The position numbers were made by a program, and so were the translations under genes. A stretch of DNA of 64,000 nt, from positions 52,886,001 through 52,950,000 of the forward strand of contig CM075101.1 of assembly GCA_037576195.1 (NCBI GenBank), read 5' to 3'. Within the stretch, counting starts at the first letter, position 1; every line of letters starts with the position of its first letter. Of the stretch, positions 3,287-43,586 are shown in pieces. This stretch comes from Phytoseiulus persimilis. Taxonomy: Eukaryota; Arthropoda; Arachnida; Mesostigmata; Phytoseiidae. The notes under the pieces are model-generated. The model worked only from the letters and a program-made list of their open reading frames with translations. It did not search any database and was not told where the DNA came from.

Positions 3287-6200
3287 TTGAGGTTATTCGA
3301 AAATTGAGCCTCACAATGATACGCGCAATATATCTTTAACCACCAACATTCCTCCGTACGCTGGAAAAACACGCACTTGAATGCTCTTCCTCCAGTGTAA
3401 TGACTGGAAATACTTCATGTGAGTCTGGAGCCTCAACTGTCACTTAAACTTAACTTTCTGTCAACATTTGTTGAGCCCCGCCTCAAGTGCAGAGAATGCG
3501 TCGGTGTCAACCCATGAGCTCCATCCTGGATCTTGAATGACGTCATCCTTGGAAATCACTAGAATCATCGGCAAGAGCTTCGAAGTCCCACGCCATGATT
3601 GTGGAGCTTCCGCGGCAGGATCTCCCAAAGGGAGCTCTGCAGTGGCGTCCGGATCATAGTTTCGACTCGTCTCTCGCTCTCTCGGTCGCATTGAGGCGTA
3701 CAGGAAGGAGGGACAGGTCAGCTGCGGTTCCAACATCGTTATTGCCGCCACCGCCGTCATCTTCTTCCCTTCCAACGGCATATGACTCGTATGCACATGC
3801 TAACGAAGCTGTATTTTCTTCTTCAGGGACGGTATGCTTCCCCAGCCCGACGGGTGGCTGACTGCGTAGCTGACGGACACGGTACACCATTACTAACACA
3901 GCTACACAAGGTCGTCATCATCATCACCACCGCGGTCGTTCAAGTGCTATCCGTTGAAAGGTGCTGCTGCTCCGAAAGCCCCAGAACCAGTCGGCGGTAC
4001 AAGGGGCGGTTGCGCCTGTACCCTGGCAGTCAGCATAAATTGATTATGCACAAATGGGCACTCTTCGTCCTTGATGCTCCCACGGCTCTGCGGACATTTC
4101 CCAGCCGACGCTTTGGATTCTGAGAGCATTCCGCCACCACTTCCGAATTCCCCACATACTCTCGACTCCCGCCGCCTGTGGTCTCTGACCAACCGCCACC
4201 CATGATCCCGCCCCACATCACACCCCTGCGAGGTTCATACACATCCCCGTGAAGAATACAGTCTGGTGTTCAAGGAACCCCTTCCCCTGAATCGTTTTGC
4301 GTGAAACAACATTATAGCTCCCTTCGTTCACGTCCTCCTCCGCTCATTCCTCGGATCTTACGTTCTTTGCGTTGTCGAACGCCCGCTCGCTACTTTCGCT
4401 TGTCCAGCGCGCGATTCTCGACCTCGCTGCTCAAGGTGACTGGATGTCCCCTCCCAGAGCGAACGTATCTCGCTGCCTGTCAGTCTCCTCAGTTGTCTTC
4501 TTTTCTCGTACGTTTCGACTGTGCTTGTGCTCGAGAGACGATGCCATTAGTTCCGCGGTCTGCATTCCGATCTCATGTCGTTTGGCGAGTTCCATGATCA
4601 GAAATTCTTTTCGTCACAACGAGGCAACGACACTCCCACCCCGATGGGATGCAAGGAAGGTCGCGAGGATGGAGTTTGCCGGGGTGTGCTCTAGAATCCA
4701 GTGTCAACGTCATCGTGTTATATCTTTAGTCTAATTATTTGTTCTTTGATCCAAGTTCTAGGCGTGACCCAGCGTGGTGCATATCTAGTATAGAGACGTG
4801 CTTGCTCGAGAAGTTTCCACGATATCGGTTGCAGAAGTTTCATGTCACTCGATGAATCGGTCTCGGAGTACCTCGCGGCCGGGTCCTGTTAGCACCCTGA
4901 TCCTTACGGGTCGTCGAGCAGGCGCATCGGATCGGAGACCAGCTATCTCTGAGTTCGGGAACTCGGGAATTTCAGAAGACTCGCGGGCCTTCTGAAGATT
5001 TGCTTTTCAAGGTGCCCAACTATCAGTGACCTTAAACCCCCTTCACCAGGGGAACGGAATTGAGGAATGACAACACATGAACAAGTTCCGAGGGACGCTA
5101 TGCAAACTGTTTGCTAGCCTATCGCGTCGAGCTGTAGTAGACCAACACCTGTTCCTACAGGATCGCGAAACCAGCTACCTTTCGGTGTACACCTTTCGAG
5201 TTTGACTCCTTCTTTGTCGCTGTCGTCTCTCTTGTACGTCGAGCTTGTCGCTTTCGAGCGCAGTCGAGGCGTCTGCTCTGCTGCCTGAAAACCTGCCCGC
5301 ATGTCCGCCTTCGAGCACATCAAGCGACGCTGTTTACTCCCAGAAGTGAAAACGAAAAGTAAACGTTGAACGCTGCCGAGCCCTAGCCCGATCCGAGTTT
5401 CGGCGAGGAGTTCAGCTTTTTCGAGGGAGGGGGTTGGGATGAGGCATGATACAATGAAACATAACTTTTAATCAAAAATCTCGGTTTCCGATGAAATTTG
5501 ACTCTGAATCCCAGCGGTCCACACAGAAAGCCGATTCCGGATACCAACTTCTGTCGGCGAGGAAAGGAAACAAGGCTACGTCACCGCTGGCGTAATTGTG
5601 AACGCGGAGCCTCGCTACAAAACGAGCTTGAGCTCACGCCGCCGTCCGCAGCTGCGTGAGATCATTGGGCTCGCGGTGCTAGTTTCCCAAAAGTCAAACT
5701 CGATAGACTCGCCAGCAGGCTAATTTGCACCTAGATCGACATCGTTCATACAATCGCATGTCCGCGCTTATTCCCGCGGAACCTTGTTAGCGATTCCGTG
5801 CAGAGGGATCTCTGTAGTGGTTCGTTTTGTATTCAGGTCTAACGAGGGTACTGGATCTATGAATGAACTGCGGGCGGGGGGTTTCCGGGCTCGGGTCGGG
5901 TGAGAGTTTCAGCGAGTGTCGCTAGGGATGTCACTGTTTCACGACAATTCAGTTCATTCCAAAGTCCATATGTTCTCACAACTGGGGAAACCAGAGCCTT
6001 GTGGAGCAACTTTGGAGTGCCTCGGAGAGCTCACATAGCTAGTTTTAGTGTTTCGGTTCTTGAATGTGGCCCGGTCGGAAAAAGATCCAGCACTCGATTT
6101 TGTTCGCGGGAAGTCATTCCGTAACCGCCTTCTTCGACTTCACTCAAAGAGACCGGAAGCAGTGCTTGGCCTTGCATCGCTCCGCGAACCTCTGCACGTG

Positions 6201-10799: not shown

Positions 10800-10940
10800 G
10801 TTGCTGGAATCGAGTCCAGTCAGGAACTGAGCTCCAAGTGCGGGAGAACTACAGGGATGGGTCCAAAAGTTCGCAATCGAGTTGTAGCTATTCGAACCAG
10901 AAGCCTACGTGCTAGGGCCGCTCTATTTGGTTAGGATCCG

Positions 10941-11013
10941 TTTCACCGAAACTCAGTGGATCGAAACCCACTTCATCGAAGCCCACTCCACCGAAACCCT
11001 CATCATCGAGAAG
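10941..11013 (+). repeat. Left 15-bp tandem array of element A
   Basis: Four full units and one partial unit of 15 bp start at 10,941, 10,956, 10,971, 10,986 and 11,001. Each has the pattern (5 bases)(A/C)(C/T)CGAA(A/G)C(C/T)C with small changes; the first reads TTTCACCGAAACTCA. A 15-bp period keeps the frame, so the array translates as a five-residue repeat, but no longer protein surrounds it. Confidence 0.85.
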
Positions 11014-11450
11014 TCTCCTCTCCCAGTCGCGAAGCGTGGTTCGCGGAGTTAGCGGGAATCAGCGCGGCACAGAGTTCGCGTTTCATGCCGTTGCTCGCCT
11101 CGGATCGCCCACTGCCACAGCCGCGAGGCGAACTCAATCACTGCCCTCTCCACCATCCACCTCCTCACCCCAGACAGCCACCTGATTGATTAATTGATAT
11201 TTTGTCCACTTCTGAGAATATGAATGAATTACTGATGGGGCATCCACAGCTTCATCTTTCACGTGTTCCAGTGTTCCACGGGCGCACAACGAGGGTGAAT
11301 TCAAAGAACCCTGTTCTACAAAGTATACATTTGGGACAGCATCAGTGGATGGCGGGAGTCTCCTGTGGCATTTTGACTCTCTCTCTCCTCTTTGCCTCTT
11401 TCCAGCCCGTCAAATAAGTGTGAATAGCTTTGCAAAAGGGTGAGGAATTA

Positions 11451-11525
11451 ATCGGTGAACTGGGCTTCGGCAAACTGAGTTTCGGTAAAGTGGGTCTCGG
11501 TGAAATGGATTTCGGTGAACTCGGT
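11451..11525 (-). repeat. Right 15-bp tandem array of element A (inverted)
   Basis: Five 15-bp units start at 11,451, 11,466, 11,481, 11,496 and 11,511, with consensus TTCGGTGAACTGGGT on the plus strand. This is the reverse complement of the left-arm unit. The units differ from one another by a few bases, so the array is not recently expanded. Confidence 0.85.
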
Positions 11526-11533
11526 ATACGCCC

Positions 11534-23037: not shown

Positions 23038-24180
23038 TCAATGGAGATCAACGTTGCCGCCTAGCCTGCTCCACCAATACTGCAGCATTTTCATTAATTA
23101 TCGATTCGTGCTGCAAGCGGCCATCGTTGTGGAGACATCGAGTGCTCTGACGGCGATTCAGGCAACTCTTATGAGTGTTGAGTCGGGGTGAAGTCCGATT
23201 CGGAACGGGAATTCTCGTGGGGGATACCTCCCTTCTTCGAATTCCATCACGACGTGTGTGTCGCAGTTCAAGTCGATGGAAGGATCGCGGTTATGTCGTT
23301 GGGTTCTGGTGTTGAGCATTCCTGCTCTTGTTAACGCCAGAAGCCGACTGCCCGCGAGTCATCGTACATATCCTGTTGGAGACCTCTTGTCTCTTTGAAT
23401 TGTCGATAAATGCACAGTGTGGATTTGGATTCAATGTTCTGTTCCCATGTATTGTCCAGTTTATTCTGCACCCTCATTTTGAGTTCTTTGCGGAATAGAG
23501 TCCACATTGCTGTGCCCGATGTATTTCTGGTCAGCCCGAGGTTTTCCAGGTCGAATTGCAATCTCAATTTCTTGAGTCTCTCTGTTGCTGTGACCGTGGT
23601 GTTTGTTATCTCGGTCGCCGTGAGGACAAGCTTGGGCCATCTCGTTGGGTCCATAGATCTTATCCTTTCGAAGTACATCGTTTTGCTCGTGGTTTCCCGG
23701 GCGTCGAAGGAGCTCCAGCCTAGTTCTCCCTCGATGAACTCCTTGGATATGGTGGAGTTGGGTATCCCGAGAGCCCATTTCCCCGCATCTCTTTGCCTGA
23801 CTTCGATGAGGTTTCTCAGTCTTTTGGGCATTGTAGTTGCCGCGCTGCAGTATGTGAGTTGCGGGACAGCGGTGGCTTTCCAGAGAATTTCGGATACTTC
23901 GAAACGGTTGAAGCTCCAGAAGGTTCTCGCGTTGAGTCTTTGGGTCGCCTTATTCGCCGTTTCGGTCAACTTTACCCAATGTTGGGCCAAGAAGTCTTTT
24001 TCGGCTGATAATTCGATTCCAAGATACTTATATGATGCTTCCTCTGGTATTCGCATCCCTTGTATACTCAGGTTTCGATTTTGGATATGTGTCTTTGGTG
24101 GTCGAGAGAAAACCAATGTGCCGCTCTTTTGAGGATTGAATTTGATGGACCGGGCGTCTCCAAATTCTGTTGTTACCTTC
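23038..24180 (-). pseudogene. LINE C-terminal region (degraded)
   Basis: Downstream of the RT core the frame stays open for about 280 codons, with SYKYLGIEL (thumb region), PQLTYCSA, a KWALG segment and GELGWSSF, before a stop at 23,331. The homologous reading continues in another frame from about 23,350 (GSRLLALTRAGMLNTR), crosses stops at 23,158 and 23,098, and ends with QYWWSRL and a stop at 23,038-23,040. The last conserved piece indicates that the ancestral protein ended near here. A Cys/His knuckle is expected in related proteins at this place, but only a CDTH remnant is visible. On the plus strand this region has a 240-codon hydrophobic frame that is an antisense shadow. Confidence 0.85.
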
Positions 24181-25627
24181 AAAAGCGTTTCCATATCCTT
24201 CCATTCGTGTGCCATCAGAACGATGTCGTCGGCAAACATCAGGCCAGGGATCGTGAAGTATTTTTTCTCTTTCACGTCCCAGAAATTGCCTTTTTTCGCG
24301 AATCTAGAGCCAATCTCTTCTGAGAGTAGTTGCCGCTCGAGATCTGCGATATACAGGCTGAAGAGGATCGCAGATAGAGGATATCCTCAACGAATTCCGG
24401 TGGGTATGGACATTTCGTTCGGGGTGTGGTCACTGTATTGAATGAAGGTGTAGGTGTCTTCATACAGGTGTTTAATGAGCTCAATCAGTGTTGGGTTCAT
24501 TCCTCTCTCCTCAAGGGTTTGCCACAGGTTCCGTCGATCGATGCGATCGAAGGCTCTCGTAGCATCCAAGAACACGCAAATCAGACCCGTTTGTTGGGCT
24601 CTAGCGGTCTCAATTGCCGTTGTTAGAACAAAAATGTTGTCTCGCCCCGGCGGTCTTTCCTGAACCCATTTTGCATCTCCGATAGTTGTTTTGTCTCCTT
24701 TGTCCATTTGTGTACGTGTTTCCCCAGTATTTTGGTGAATACTCGATACATGACATCGGATACAGTGATGGGTCTGTATGTGGTAAGGTTTCGCTCCGTT
24801 GAGTTTGGTTTTTTCCATTTTCCAGAAGGGAGACCCTGCCTATCCTCCATTTCATCGGCAGCTCGTGAGTGCCTTCCAGAATCTCATCGAATACATCGGA
24901 CACGTATTCGTAGCCGATATCGGTCAACGCTTTCGAGGATTTTCGTCGGCATCTTGTCGGGTCCAGTGGCTGAATTCACGGAGATTCCCGCCAAGGTGGT
25001 TTTCACCTCCGAACCTGTTGTGACAAGATCGACTCGTGGCCTCGAGAGGAAGCGTCGATCCTCATGGTTAGGATTGTCTTCAGCTTCCAGCAGGTGGTTT
25101 TCTACTCTAGTGAGGCAGGCTGTCATATATACAGCTTCATTTACTATTCGTATCCTGTCTGGTGCCTTTCTCCCGTTCTTCCTGATGTACTCCCAGAATG
25201 CTTGGGTTTTTGCTCGTCTGGGGGCTCTCATTTTTTGGTCGTACATTTTACGATACCTGATATGGAGTTGGTTCGCGATTTCGGTTCGGACAGCGTCTCG
25301 TGCTATTCGATACTTCCTTTTCGCTTCTTCCACGCCAATTCCAGTGTGTCTGGCTCTCCTCCATGCACGATTCTGTTCCCTTCTGTATCTCGAAAGTCGT
25401 GCTATTTCGGGAGAGAGTATTCTCTTTCTCGAGTCTTCATTGATGAGTTTAGTATTTTGGGTCATTGCAGTTTGGAGGGTAGTCAGCAGATCCCTGTAGT
25501 TGGCCGACCTTGGTGATCTGAGCAAAACTTCCAGTTCACTTGTGGCTGTTTCCGCTGCTTTTTGTACCCGTAATACTTTCACTCGTGCCTTTTGGAATTT
25601 TCCATTTCTCTTGCCCTTACCGACGTG
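24180..25627 (-). pseudogene. LINE linker and reverse transcriptase domain (degraded)
   Basis: The linker (about 25,627-25,000) is an Arg/Lys-rich helical-looking segment, open in one frame. RT follows: TGPDKMPTKIL, then a frame change at about 24,935 into a segment ending in MKWRIG, another at about 24,830 into NLTTYRPITVSDVMYR, another at about 24,665 into RDNIFVL. After motif A the frame runs to PTGIR, where a TGA at 24,387-24,389 interrupts the conserved site that normally reads (R)QGxPLS. The same frame then resumes as GYPLSAILFSLYIADL and reaches FADDIVLMA. A TGA here is one step from CGA, so a CpG transition is a simple explanation. The active-site DD pair is intact. Confidence 0.88.
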
Positions 25628-26260
25628 TGGGGTAATGAGGTTATGGTAGCTCCAGTTAAGGACTTCTTTGTTCTCGTCTATGTGCATGGACATAACCTCT
25701 CGGTGTGCTGCAGCGTTGCAGAGTACATAGTCGGTTGAGGACGAATGACCACCCCGTCAAGCTGTTGGATATGGGCGTTCATGTAACCCGCAATCACTAG
25801 CTTGGTGTCCTTCTCAACTCTAGCTCGGATAACATCTCCTATATGTCGAGATTGTTCCTTATCCGAGTTCTGGTCGGTGATGGCGGCGTAGACTGAGATG
25901 AAGTCCCATTGTCGGTTTCCTATCTCAGCGCCTATTGCAATGAAATCAGCCCCTTTTTCGGTCCAGAGTATCTCGTCCATGGTAGATCGGATAAGTATTC
26001 CAGTTCCACCGGATGATTTACTGCCAGAGGGTCCTTCTCGATTGTTCCCGTAAAATGTGAACCCTTCGATCCGAGGTGGATTTTCTGGATTCATCAGGTG
26101 GGTTTCTGAGAGGGGGAGGATATCATAGTAGTCTGATAGCCTCCCAGTTTCAATTTTGAGTAGGTCTTGGTAGAGACTTTCCCACTTGGCTGGGTTTTCC
26201 CCCCTCGCATGTTGAAAACACCAATTTTGATGCGGAAAATAATTTTTATTTTGTCATCGT
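25628..26260 (-). pseudogene. LINE endonuclease domain (degraded)
   Basis: This is the N-terminal endonuclease of the element. It starts with IKIGVFNMRGG, then changes frame at a run of six C (plus strand, 26,199-26,204) next to four T, continues through ILPLSETHL and a GGTGILIR segment, and ends with a motif reading WSYHNLI. Two positions where this family normally has catalytic aspartate are tyrosine: GYMNAHI (codon 25,783-25,785, family pattern GDFNAH) and WSYH (codon 25,646-25,648, family pattern SDH). Both are TAC where GAC is expected, so the nuclease would probably be inactive even without the frame changes. A second frame change lies near 25,745. Confidence 0.85.
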
Positions 26261-27230: not shown

Positions 27231-28237
27231 GCCTGTCTGGGCATCGTTGTATCTCTTCCCTCAGGCGGCATTTCCCTCTCTGCGTGAAGTGTTCTAAGTA
27301 AGCGTTGGACGAGCGGCTCACGCTCCTCCTGTACAGATCTTGCACACAGAACCGCTATCACAGGAGATACATGTGGTCTTTTCTGGCTACCAATGACAAT
27401 TCAAGAATGCATTCAAATATGGTCGTCTCTGGTGTGTACCGTTTGCATTCGGCTTCCTTCCGCTCCATGATGATGTGCGCATCATTGAAATTCTCGAGGT
27501 CATTCTGCGGTCGGAGTACAGAACCCCACGTTCGTGGACTTTTTGTTGACGCACTTACGAGAGATGTCGAAACTCCCACGTGACCCTTTCATAGTGCGCG
27601 ATGCAGCTCTCCAACAAAAGCTCTTGTCAGATCGACCGAAGGCGAGGTTATGCGGGCGCTCACGTACCTCATGATGTCCCGTGAGGGGATACGACTGATC
27701 CCGAGTTCTGGAGTCTCAGGTATTCCGAGCATTCAAAGTCAGACGGCCCTGCACTCTCAGGTTGTCCGACCCCTCCACGATGGCGACGGAACTCACTCTG
27801 CTCAGCTGTAACTTAGTCCTCTTGTCTGGGAGAAACGCTGAACCTTGAATCGGTTCAGAATTTGTTCCGGAAGTTCAGAAGATCGGTGATCTCCGTCGGA
27901 TGCCCATGCGATCAGAGCGCCAATGGTCCAATCCACCCCATTGTTGCTTTTCGGTCTGAGCTGGAAGCTGGCGAAAATCACTTCTTTAATCTTATTATTA
28001 TGGAGGGGAAATCCCTCCGGACACCGCCGGTAAGATTGGGGAGTCCTTTACCATGGTAGTGAGGTGTGAAACCTCCCCTGCAGCAACCCGGGGATCGGGA
28101 ACTCGAGTTTTGTAGCTCGTTTGGTATTGCGTCCGTCCCACCGGGAGCCCTCCGACTAGCTGCGCAATTTCTGGTTCAATCCTGCGTATTCATTTCGCTA
28201 GGCATCTTGTTCACGTTGGCTGGGCAGGCGTTGAGCT

Positions 28238-28246
28238 GTCTGCCTG
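28238..28246 (+). repeat. Left copy of 9-bp target-site duplication
   Basis: GTCTGCCTG immediately precedes the left end of element B and is identical to the 9 bp that follow its right end. Nine bases is the length typical of Mutator-like and foldback transposons. Confidence 0.8.
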
Positions 28247-28256
28247 GGTGCTACTC

Positions 28257-28378
28257 GATTTGAGCGCGGATCGATTTGAGCGCAGGATCGATTTGAGCGC
28301 AGTTGATTTGAGCGAGGTCGATTTGAGCGCAGTTGATTTGAGCGAGGTCGATTTGAGCGCAGTTGATTTGAGCGCAAC
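28257..28378 (+). repeat. Left array of element B, eight units of 15-17 bp
   Basis: GATTTGAGCG starts at 28,257, 28,273, 28,290, 28,305, 28,320, 28,335, 28,350 and 28,365. The spacers alternate between CAGTT and AGGTC in the inner six units, so a 30-bp dimer has been amplified. The outer two units end in CGGATC and CAGGATC. Because most units are 15 bp, every frame gives a five-residue repeat such as LRSNQ on the complementary strand; there is no sign that this is a real protein. Confidence 0.92.
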
Positions 28379-28764
28379 GAATTCACTCGCGCTGCTGTGA
28401 GTGTGGAGTATGAGATAGAGGGAGAGGAAAATCCCTCTTATCCTATCCGCCTGTTGCAGACTACTCGACAAACAAAGAGAGTACGGTTGCTCGGGGAATA
28501 TGGAGAGGAGAATCCAAACCTAACCTAACCTCATCGAAAATATTTCTCCTTCTCGAGCTGAGGCTACGTTCCTTTGTCTGATTCATCGAGGGAATGTAGT
28601 CACCGAAGTATCTCATGCCGTTGTCCAAATTCTCATCTCCATATTCCCCCGAGCAACCGTACTTTCCCTATTCGTCGAGTAGTCTACAATCGGCGGATAG
28701 GTTGGGGATTTTCCTCTTCCTTTATCTCATACTCCACACACACAGCAGCGCAAGTGAATTCGTT

Positions 28765-28839
28765 GCGCTCAAATCGACCTCGCTCAAATCAACTGCGCTC
28801 AAATCAATCCTGCGCTCAAATCGATCCGCGCTCAAATCG
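28765..28839 (-). repeat. Right array of element B, five units, inverted
   Basis: Five copies of CGCTCAAATC, the complement of the left unit, with spacers in the same order counted from the outside (CGGATC, CAGGATT, CAGTT, AGGTC, CAACG). The agreement of the variant units shows the arms were identical once, and that the left arm later gained (or the right lost) three units. Confidence 0.92.
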
Positions 28840-28848
28840 ACTGACACG

Positions 28849-28857
28849 GTCTGCCTG
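28849..28857 (+). repeat. Right copy of 9-bp target-site duplication
   Basis: GTCTGCCTG directly follows the right end of element B and matches 28,238-28,246 exactly. Confidence 0.8.
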
Positions 28858-31800
28858 TGATGCGTCGAAACGCCGTCGTCTAACTTTTTCCAGCTCAGTT
28901 CCCCTGCTGAGAATTTCGCCAACTGTTCTGCTCATCGACCTCCTTTCGTCCTCGCTCTGCAACATTTTTTGCATTAGGGTGGGCACATCAGACAGGCGAA
29001 AAGCGACATATCGTAACGTAAATCTACTTAAATGCTTGAACGACCTAGAAAATACATCTGAACACTCCGTAGTCGAATTCTAAGCCATTCGTATGTCAAC
29101 CGATCAGCTGTGAAATCCGATCGGGGTCTGAGCCGCGGTTCGTTTAGGAATTCCGTTCTAGAGAAGGCTGTACGAGTCGAAGATGCAAAGAGCCAGGGTA
29201 TCCTGTGCGAGGCAACTAGCCTGCCGCGGATAACTGACATGCGTATTTGACAAGATGGAGAATCTCTTTCCCCATTGCTCTCGGGCTCTCAGGTAAGATG
29301 GTTGCTCCGTCCGTGTGAGATGGTTGCACCACTGGGCGGGAAACAGGATACATGAACGTTGTTCGTCGGGAGCCGATCCCATCCAGGCGGACAGCATTGG
29401 TCCACGGGAATGCGCGGTTGTTATGACAGTCATGCATCTTTGCCTTGTAGAGTTCCGCGAATCTCCGCTGTCCACGACACGGATCGGCTCCTGAGGGAAA
29501 GGCGATGTTCACGTGAGGGGGAAGCCACGTGCTCTCGATTTAGAACAACGATTCGGAAGGAAAATCGAAGTGACCAGGAGCGTCTCGTAGCCCGCGCACA
29601 AAATATTGCGGGTCCGTTCCCCAGAGATGGAGCGAGAATTTCAACCGGCCTGCGTAAACAAACTCTACACGATGTCACTTGCTGATGGATTCTGTCTCAT
29701 AAAAAACCTCTCCCGCGAGCTCCGAGACGCTCGAGCGGAGGAGTTAACGAACACCTGTTCAAACGAGATTCGAGCTCTCTGGTTCGAGCGCTCCCGGGAG
29801 ATAGATACCGCGTATTCGTCGCATGCTCTGGAAGCTTGACTCTCCAGGTTTTCGTACCTCGCTCCAGTCGGCAGACCCCGGGAACGTTTTGTTGTCGGAT
29901 AGGCATTGCAAGAATAACTAAAGTGCCGAAATAGATGAGCGGATCTCGCTCTCGAGAGTTTAGAGAGTTCTCTCTGAGTGAGATCCACACCAGTGTTGAC
30001 TGTCTGGTCTTCTCGTATTTTGTATTCGGAACAACCGACTCTTCGCTTCCTGGATTCAGTGTCGAAGCGTGCCCGAGTTCTTTGGATCATCGGAATTCGT
30101 GAGAGTGCTATCGCTTTCGGGGAGAATGCAAGTCACTGGAGTCCCAGTTTGTAGTGGAAGGCGATCCGATCTCGAACTGATCCTTGGACCCCTACCCCCC
30201 TCTATGAGTCGTGCGGTGGTTTGGGAATAATCCGGCCCCAGAGCAAGACAGAGATAGAGAAACAACCCAGGATCAGGGGATACAACGAGAGAGGGATTCG
30301 CGAGTTCTTCCCAACTCCCTGCCATGCGAGAGGTATACCGGCGGAAATCGAACAACGTAACGTTATTGCGTCTAGACCTCATGAAAAATCGTTTCCCAGT
30401 TAGGCCACGTCTAACGTAGTCCTTGCATTCGGATTTGAGGCCAACAGCTTCCCCGACTGAGACGGTGGCTCGCTCAAGTTTCACAATCCCGATCTGGACC
30501 GCTGTTCCTCCCAACCTTCCCTACGTTACATCATCGATGTATCGAAATCGGAGGATGCTGAACCCGAAAGTCGGGTCATCGTGCGACGAAAGAGCAATAT
30601 TCCTTCCCGAGAGCCTGCGGCATATGTTGAATTGCTCTGAGCACGGTGATTGCTGGGGCTGATATCACCATCTCTCTCGTCTAGACACTCCAATGGCTTT
30701 CTTGGATCGAGGTATCTCAGAGGCGTGTATGGGATTCCCTTTGCGGCGCTCAATCAATGGAGTCCCAAAATTCAGAGAAAAATGTTGAGACGTTAACCGA
30801 CGCTCTGAAACGGGCCTGGCAGAGAATCAGGAACCAAATCTGAAGACCCCTTTGTTATTCGTGGAATGGATTTTCAGAGTCAGTGTTATGGAGGATTTTC
30901 GGAATATCCTCTCAACCTGGTCGAACAAGCTCAGCTGATTGATGGGAACCGTGGGAAGCAGAGACTCGCACGAAGAGTCGCTCGAACAACTGCGGACTTG
31001 GCAAGGAACCCAACCACCTCGCCTGGCTCTCGATCGCTGTTCTGTGGTCCCCTTTAGGAGGGACGTCTTCGGAGGGATACGGCTTCAAGCGCACTAGAAG
31101 AAAGGAAAGATTCGGGTGTGTTCTGAGAACCTGGAATGGACACAGGGACGTGAGTATTATCACCAGGCAGTGTTATTCAGACACTCATCCTAGTAGCTCG
31201 GAATCCCCGCGCTTCTGGGAGAGTTGGTGACAGTTCCAGGTCCCGAGGCAAAATTCATATCCAGAACCTATACGCGAGGGGAGCACCCATGACGGAAAGC
31301 TTGCAATATTCAGAGCCCTTCTGACTGCAATAAAGAACAGTGATGTCAGCTCTACTTTATGAGCAACTTCGAATCCTCTCGCAGACAATAGAGCAGGGTC
31401 TTCAACGATAGACAGCGGTCGTTTCTCGCGGAGCATCCGACTGTCACCTGCTCCTCTCCGCGCCTCTCTTTCTCTCGAATTCTTTTCCACCAATATCTCT
31501 GGCCTGCGAATGTTTTCCTTTCCACCGCGTTTCTTCCCTTTTTCCGATAGAGCTTCAGGGCCCCGGATTTGTGTTTTCGCGATGCTCAGAATCCCGAACC
31601 CCCAGAAGGATATTCCCTCCGGGACAGTCGACAGAGGCAGGAGGCTGTTGGAAGGCTTTTCAGAGAACTGCAGCCCACCTGAATGAATTGAGCTTTAGGA
31701 GATTTCCAATATACCGCATTGATATTTGGCCACCGCGATTGCTCATGACGTTCTGAAGCAGTGATGACCAACCGGCGCTTTGTACTCACACAAGCGGCTC

Positions 31801-43484: not shown

Positions 43485-43586
43485 GAGTGGAGGCCGGTTT
43501 CGAGCTGCGGGCCATTTTGAGCGAAAGGTTGATTTGAGCGACAGCTCGATTAGATCGATGAATAGATCACAGCGGAGATCCAACAT
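43485..43586 (+). repeat. 17-bp tandem array (six degenerate units)
   Basis: Units start at 43,485, 43,502, 43,519, 43,536, 43,553 and 43,570. The first four begin GAG and carry G about eight bases later and ATT or TTT near the end (for example GAGCGAAAGGTTGATTT). The last two are more diverged (GATCGATGAATAGATCA, CAGCGGAGATCCAACAT). A 17-bp period rotates the reading frame, so this is not a protein repeat. It resembles the array at 55.9-56.1 kb and the units of element B. No inverted partner was found nearby. Confidence 0.7.

Follow-up and report, generated by a model that had tools for sequence, protein, structure and literature searches.

At 28247-28848 of the window, by which is meant the whole 64-kb stretch of DNA that was analysed (C1:52886001-52950000 in a 181-Mb assembly of 127 contigs), lies an element of 602 bp bounded by perfect 9-bp duplications, GTCTGCCTG, at 28238-28246 and 28849-28857 (both plus strand). 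The element begins with GGTGCTACTCGATTTGAGCG and finishes with CGCTCAAATCGACTGACACG, and the two GTCTGCCTG copies stand directly outside GGTGCTAC on the left and CTGACACG on the right. On the plus strand it comprises a left terminal motif GGTGCTAC (28247-28254), unmatched by the opposite end, a left array of eight units of about 15 bp (28257-28375; spacing 16, 17, then 15), a left inner arm (28376-28513) and a loop or spacer (28514-28628); these are followed on the minus strand by a right inner arm (28629-28764), a right array of five units (28765-28838) and a right terminal motif that reads CGTGTCAG inwards (28841-28848). The inverted arms run from about 28248 to 28513 and from about 28629 to 28847, i.e. 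over about 266 and 219 bp, in agreement with the 215-270 bp given in the preliminary description, and their outermost 8 bp are not mirrored (GGTGCTAC on the left versus CGTGTCAG, read inwards, on the right). When the window was searched for inverted repeats (minimum length 25 nt, maximum separation 6 kb), the three longest all fell within the 602-bp element, and Tandem Repeats Finder placed the 15-bp arrays at 28255-28376 and 28765-28841. Decoding of the units gave the order A-B-C-D-C-D-C-E (8) on the left and A-Q-C-D-E (5) on the right, with B and Q one base apart; for this copy the unit order had been read correctly as equal in both arms with three extra units on the left. Folded as single-stranded DNA, the element reached −234.3 kcal/mol, compared with −82.8 (s.d. 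5.5) for 20 shuffled sequences (z −27.5). The element thus has long inverted arms in which short tandem units, variable in number, take up most of the length, as is characteristic of the foldback type. Searches with Rfam (gathering threshold), a tRNA scan and NCBIfam gave no matches.

The insertion site was analysed by searching the joined flanks of 14 copies together and scoring the best 40 of 391 candidates. The joined flank of the window element was matched contiguously across the junction, at 82-87% identity, in at least 30 places, and in five of these, which were aligned, the sequence was continuous without the element and contained the 9-mer once, with 8 of 9 bases alike. The element therefore sits in an older interspersed repeat (28002-28988, no strand assigned; homology over 28002-28246 and 28851-28988) and the 9-mer is the duplicated target, which places the 9-bp match at the insertion boundary, as had been assumed. 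The flank of L013 matched one place across the junction (82%) among the scored candidates, and the left flank of L011 had one ambiguous match reaching 14 bases beyond the junction; for the remaining 11 flanks only their own halves were matched among the scored candidates (best 40 of 391). Nine same-strand copies of the host repeat were located in the last 140 kb of C1 (C1:54598516-54732607), with gaps of 12-15 kb in five of eight cases and of 19-23 kb in three of eight, possibly a subtelomeric array; no tandem repeats were found in the last 7 kb of C1, and a search of the assembly for (TTAGG)5 gave no match.

Elsewhere in the window, 10929-11532 is occupied by another element of foldback-like build, whose inverted 15-bp arrays consist of units close to TCGAAACCCACTTCA; it has four further near full-length and several partial copies in the genome. 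Two diverged tandem TTTGAGCG units at 43516-43551 are possibly the relic of a related array. A reverse-transcriptase fragment (RVT_1, 23.2 bits, below the cut-off of 29.6) was detected on the minus strand at 23331-24275, and a neighbouring minus-strand frame (24884-25693) had no Pfam match; the region 23331-25693 on this strand is probably a non-LTR retrotransposon.

Short copies and their arrays

A genome search with the element returned at least 149 matching pieces (best 40 of 152 candidates scored), and the 30 best copies (L001-L030) were taken with about 1.5 kb of flanking sequence. Both ends were present in 28 of these 30 copies (all except L023 and L026), and the orientation of the loop relative to the ends, judged by comparing strands by eye, was constant in 28/28. 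Perfect 9-bp duplications flanked 12 of the 28. A looser rule was passed by 21/28, namely the 12 perfect 9-mers, four with one mismatch in nine and five perfect 8-mers; the seven others had either no duplication at all (L006, L007, L012) or a degraded one (L017, L022, L029, L030). When left and right flanks of different copies were combined as a control, 2/756 combinations passed, and both paired L013 with L016, which have a common insertion site. A chance origin of the hairpin and its duplications was rejected on the basis of this control and the fold statistic (z −27.5). L013 (C2:2561149-2561758) and L016 (C2:2584372-2585013) represent one insertion in two duplicated segments that lie 23 kb apart in opposite orientation.

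The genome was also searched with the end motifs, tolerating up to two mismatches, which yielded 85 left and 111 right ends; reversed control patterns yielded 4 and 4. With the 85 left ends and 100 of the 111 right ends, at least 59 elements could be paired (four of 3.9-4.1 kb, two of about 1.6 kb and 53 of 430-766 bp), and duplications were checked for about half of them. Further copies with the same ends, as anticipated in the preliminary description, are therefore numerous. One left and one right end were combined in 58 of the 59 pairs, the exception being C2:21270253, where an ambiguous hybrid end fits both patterns, and right/right pairs were absent among the 59. Because the ends are unlike in 58/59 pairs, the data suggest that the left and right types are not interchangeable. 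A 1,616-bp member (L045, 1001-2616) has short-element sequence at both ends; its interior of about 1 kb has no match in either the short or the long element and is probably a nested insertion.

Units were decoded in 10 of the 28 short copies and six variant units were sought in all 28. Nine copies, L001-L009, among them the window copy, differ on average by 0.86% over the 389 bp between the arrays; this near-identity, together with the perfect 9-bp duplication, bears out the view that the insertion was fairly recent. L004, L005, L006 and L008 are identical over the inner 389 bp and have left/right unit numbers of 10/10, 10/12, 12/11 and 11/8, and L002 and L007, identical with each other over the same 389 bp, have 8/9 and 10/12. 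In the duplicated insertion L013/L016, 3 of 378 bases differ and the right arrays differ by 30 bp, equal to two units. Positions 209-2162 of L011 contain a local tandem duplication, with one mismatch, of the flank and the right arm up to the hairpin loop, and the lengths of the two parts differ by 45 bp, consistent with three units. Since copies that are identical inside differ in their unit counts, unit numbers in the arrays change much faster than bases.

The left array of the window copy, with 8 units, lies within the 6-12 units of the other eight young copies, and its right array, with 5 units, is shorter than all eight (7-13 units) and hence the shortest of the nine. For these two reasons the imbalance between the arms is attributed mainly to loss on the right. 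Unequal exchange or slippage in the left arm, as first proposed, is not supported by these counts, and an expansion of the left arm was rejected, the left arrays of the sister copies spanning the eight units of the window copy. In five of the eight sister copies, whose right arrays end in C-D-E, A-Q-C-D-R precedes K on the right, and in seven of the eight (L002-L008) the right-array units R or K are absent from the left array. A matching unit order in both arms is thus not a rule of the family, seven of eight sister copies deviating from it.

Long copies and proposed mobilisation of the family

A profile search of the genome with PF10551 (MULE) gave 150 scored matches, 147 of them above the cut-off. 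One match lay inside each of four elements bounded by the same two ends, with 15-bp arrays like those of the short elements: L041 (4,077 bp, perfect 8-bp duplication), L042 (4,047 bp, perfect 9-bp duplication), L043 (4,107 bp, perfect 9-bp duplication) and L044 (3,873 bp, perfect 8-bp duplication). In all four the match is on the opposite strand, at a distance of about 1.1-1.4 kb from the left end. Longer copies with a transposase domain, the expected counterpart of a non-autonomous, Mutator-like element as the window copy had been called, are therefore present, and both ends are common to short and long copies. These long copies are recent, given that L041 shares 99.2% identity with L043 and 99.0% with L042. 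About 35 of the 147 matches, counted by eye, lie in open frames of at least 400 amino acids, and the assembly is rich in MULE transposases.

L043 was the one long copy scanned for further domains. On its minus strand, PF10551 was matched with an E value of 8.8e-9 (36.1 bits; cut-off 27.6), and a FLYWCH finger (PF04500, E 1.1e-9) was found in a separate open frame on the same strand, upstream in the direction of the gene; a PHD finger had no Pfam match in the eight open frames of L043 (E up to 0.01). The FLYWCH and MULE frames are joined by a gene model, which posits two GT-AG introns, into a predicted protein of 466 amino acids that is free of stops in L042 and L043. The predicted introns measure 120 and 200 bp; a first intron of 57 bp is also possible. 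With the 120-bp intron the model continues into an H-x-H, which we take as the putative close of the FLYWCH finger. The predicted protein contains DGTFK, HVD and NEMEGWH, presumably the catalytic D-D-E triad. In L041 the last exon contains a frame break and exon 1 starts differently; L044, to which the model of L042 and L043 is not applicable, is interrupted by one stop in the transposase frame. When viral contigs were scanned for the transposase, no relative was detected.

More distant relatives were also found. L053 contains an element of about 3.4 kb whose MULE gene shows 51% protein identity; its arrays consist of a 17-bp unit, GACATTTTGAGCCCGAG, its ends are apparently unlike, and it has a 9-10-bp duplication. 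Two further right ends, those in L061 and L062, lie near transposase remnants (C2:17105881, 68% protein identity; C2:4794106, 60%); both are decayed, with no left end seen. The L053 relative and the decayed remnants indicate for the long lineage a greater age and diversity than the four good copies would show by themselves. Beside the remnant and right end of L062, positions 4135-4300 match the loop and inner right part of the short element at 74%; this stretch is perhaps a remnant of the lineage that gave the short bodies.

Very probably, then, the window element belongs to the Mutator (MULE) superfamily as a Phantom-like foldback transposon of the non-autonomous kind. In this reading, transposase from long copies would bind the repeated TCGATTTGAGCGC units through its FLYWCH finger, pair the two unlike ends, excise the element and insert it at cuts staggered by 9 (or 8) bp. 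The TTTGAGC core common to the 15-bp units and the 17-bp unit of the L053 sister family would be expected if the units were transposase-binding sites that change with the transposase, and is not proof of it. The seven of 28 copies that fail the looser duplication rule count against the reading as a whole, L006 and L007 being young and yet having no duplication.

The mobilising copy may be another than the four described, because identity between the long left arms and the short inner arms is no higher than about 76-89%. It is rather unlikely that the mobiliser is a different, more closely related autonomous element, one that has decayed, has been lost or is missing from the assembly. Besides the divergence of the arms, this would suit the fact that the nine short copies are nearly identical and hence recent, whereas in the tree of inner arms the long left arms group as a separate clade, and that decayed relatives exist at C2:17105881 and C2:4794106, where there is no left end for comparison. 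Opposed to it are the ends, and the left array of L011, which match the long copies almost exactly, and the roughly 99% identity among L041, L043 and L042, by which the long copies are recent too. The long copies described may not include the helper that acted directly on the young short copies.

In L011, 189 of 189 aligned bases of the left array equal those of the left array of the long elements, with one L unit repeated, and the variant units H, I, J, K and L follow in the order of the long elements; the inner arms of this copy share 79.7% and 84.5% identity with the long left arm. In the remaining 27 copies the left array is 85.1-98.4% identical to the long left array over 69-189 aligned bases. 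H, I, J or K occurs on the left in L011 alone among the 28 short copies, and L once each in L022 and L024. The right array of L011 agrees with the best of the four long copies in 171/174 bases, a weaker comparison in which most units are the common one. As a single case, L011 suggests that ends may have been exchanged between long and short copies.

Origin of the hairpin and related elements

The left end of the long elements is the homologue of both inner arms of the short element, of the right one in reversed orientation: bases 9-266 of the element match bases 72-319 of the long element, and bases 284-597 match 418-114 reversed, so that the loop, too, from about 28530 onward, matches the long left end in reverse. 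The long element's own right end contains the array and no inner-arm sequence, and the short elements have kept the right terminal motif despite their left-derived right arm. A tree was computed from 170 bases per inner arm, without the right arms of L028 and L030, which were dropped for a poorly matched boundary. The 28 short left arms fell on one side of a branch with 100/100 support, and the 26 short right arms and the four long left arms, the latter as their own clade, on the other. Because the short left arms all fall on one side of this fully supported branch, the tree is consistent with a palindrome that arose once, before the young copies spread, and whose arms have diverged since.

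Such a hairpin could have formed if the left end served as template for the repair of a broken right end, with a switch within the shared 15-bp arrays; a switch at this place would have retained the right terminal motif. Repair of one end from the other has been proposed for the arms of Galileo (PMC3573991, in the part of the text available), and we infer that repair of the right end from the left is the simplest account of the present hairpin. Afterwards the arrays would drift by slippage or unequal exchange and may occasionally be swapped with those of long copies. That the arms instead stem from repeated independent inverted duplications, or from conversion of one arm by the other, and not from one old duplication of the left end, is very unlikely: the array parts of both arms are alike and hairpins can convert each other, but outside the arrays the 28 left and 26 right arms are unmixed in the tree. 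Conversion within the arrays is possible.

Elements of the Mutator superfamily generate target duplications of about 8-11 bp, often 9. The 21 of 28 short copies that pass the looser rule (12 with perfect 9 bp) and the long copies (9, 9, 8 and 8 bp) fall within this range, and the long copies contain the PF10551 domain. In Drosophila, Foldback (FB) elements have arms of short tandem units and 9-bp duplications; going by this general description, the window element resembles FB in both the build of its arms and the length of its duplications. It is best read as a foldback Mutator-like element of the non-autonomous kind, and among known elements its design comes nearest to that of Tm1.

Tm1, of Meloidogyne root-knot nematodes, is described in the available text of PMC3169594 as a Mutator/foldback element of the Phantom subclass. 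According to this source it shares with the window family 9-bp duplications, unlike end motifs (7 bp in Tm1) outside the inverted repeat with one of each in most copies, arrays of short units (13-15 bp in Tm1) that differ in number between the arms, and a form with FLYWCH and MULE domains (in Tm1 a single autonomous one, of 496 amino acids) next to many short forms. The unit of Tm1 is CGATTCAGTATCCGC, with other end motifs, compared with TCGATTTGAGCGCAG and the ends GGTGCTAC/CGTGTCAG here, and Tm1 is presented in the same text as low in copy number and inactive, with no two copies identical (PMC3169594), whereas some young copies of the present family share identical inner regions. Unlike in Tm1, both arms here go back to the long element's left end. 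Phantom MULEs are listed, in the sections accessible of PMC6446971, as group 20, present in several animal groups including arthropods, with 8-10-bp duplications, FLYWCH in some and a minisatellite noted in aphid members; the likeness of the window family to them lies in these described features, and its filing under Phantom is putative. Rehavkus, as far as it is covered there, resembles the family in its 9-bp duplications and a minisatellite near one end and differs in its PHD finger, for which the open frames of L043 gave no match (PMC6446971).

Foldback-like arms are known from unrelated superfamilies, Galileo being a P element (PMC3573991, available part), and the family might accordingly be a foldback of another superfamily (P/Galileo, hAT or similar) whose arms merely resemble those of Mutator-type elements. 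In the parts of PMC3573991 and PMC3688188 that are accessible, Galileo is similar in its long, internally repetitive arms with unequal unit numbers and in the extension of the arms by recruitment of internal sequence, attributed to repair of one end from the other; it differs in its P-type transposase with a THAP domain instead of FLYWCH-MULE. Such an origin is highly improbable, since four long copies with the same ends have the MULE domain, with FLYWCH in the one scanned, and the duplications are of 8-9 bp. The dispersed copies with distinct flanks, the duplications and the empty sites show, as the preliminary description held, that a transposon is involved, and leave a practically negligible chance that a satellite or hairpin-forming repeat was spread by recombination without transposition, for which the local tandem duplication of flank and half an element in L011 might speak.

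The main text of a 2026 survey of arthropod MULEs (PMC13359780) does not mention foldback, FLYWCH or Phantom. No title or abstract describing the window's family was found in the open-licence literature, to which the search was confined, so that this result carries little weight.

With the Mutator-type foldback reading, the genome holds a young foldback family of multiple copies along with the long elements that are its likely autonomous partner, and the design of Tm1 (unlike ends, arrays of short units, FLYWCH and MULE) occurs here with motifs and units unlike those of Tm1. Arm formation, array variation and the role of the arrays can thereby be tested on one set of sequences, in which the inner arms order the events and the arrays show rapid turnover of units. 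It is tentatively proposed, as a possibility rather than the expectation, that the arrays are exchange zones, in which short copies occasionally take up the current array of autonomous copies, and with it the ends that the transposase presently binds, by recombination in the units while their bodies drift on. If this is true, exchange of arrays combined with an enforced difference between left and right ends would enable an element that parasitises the transposase to keep up with its helper over the long term.
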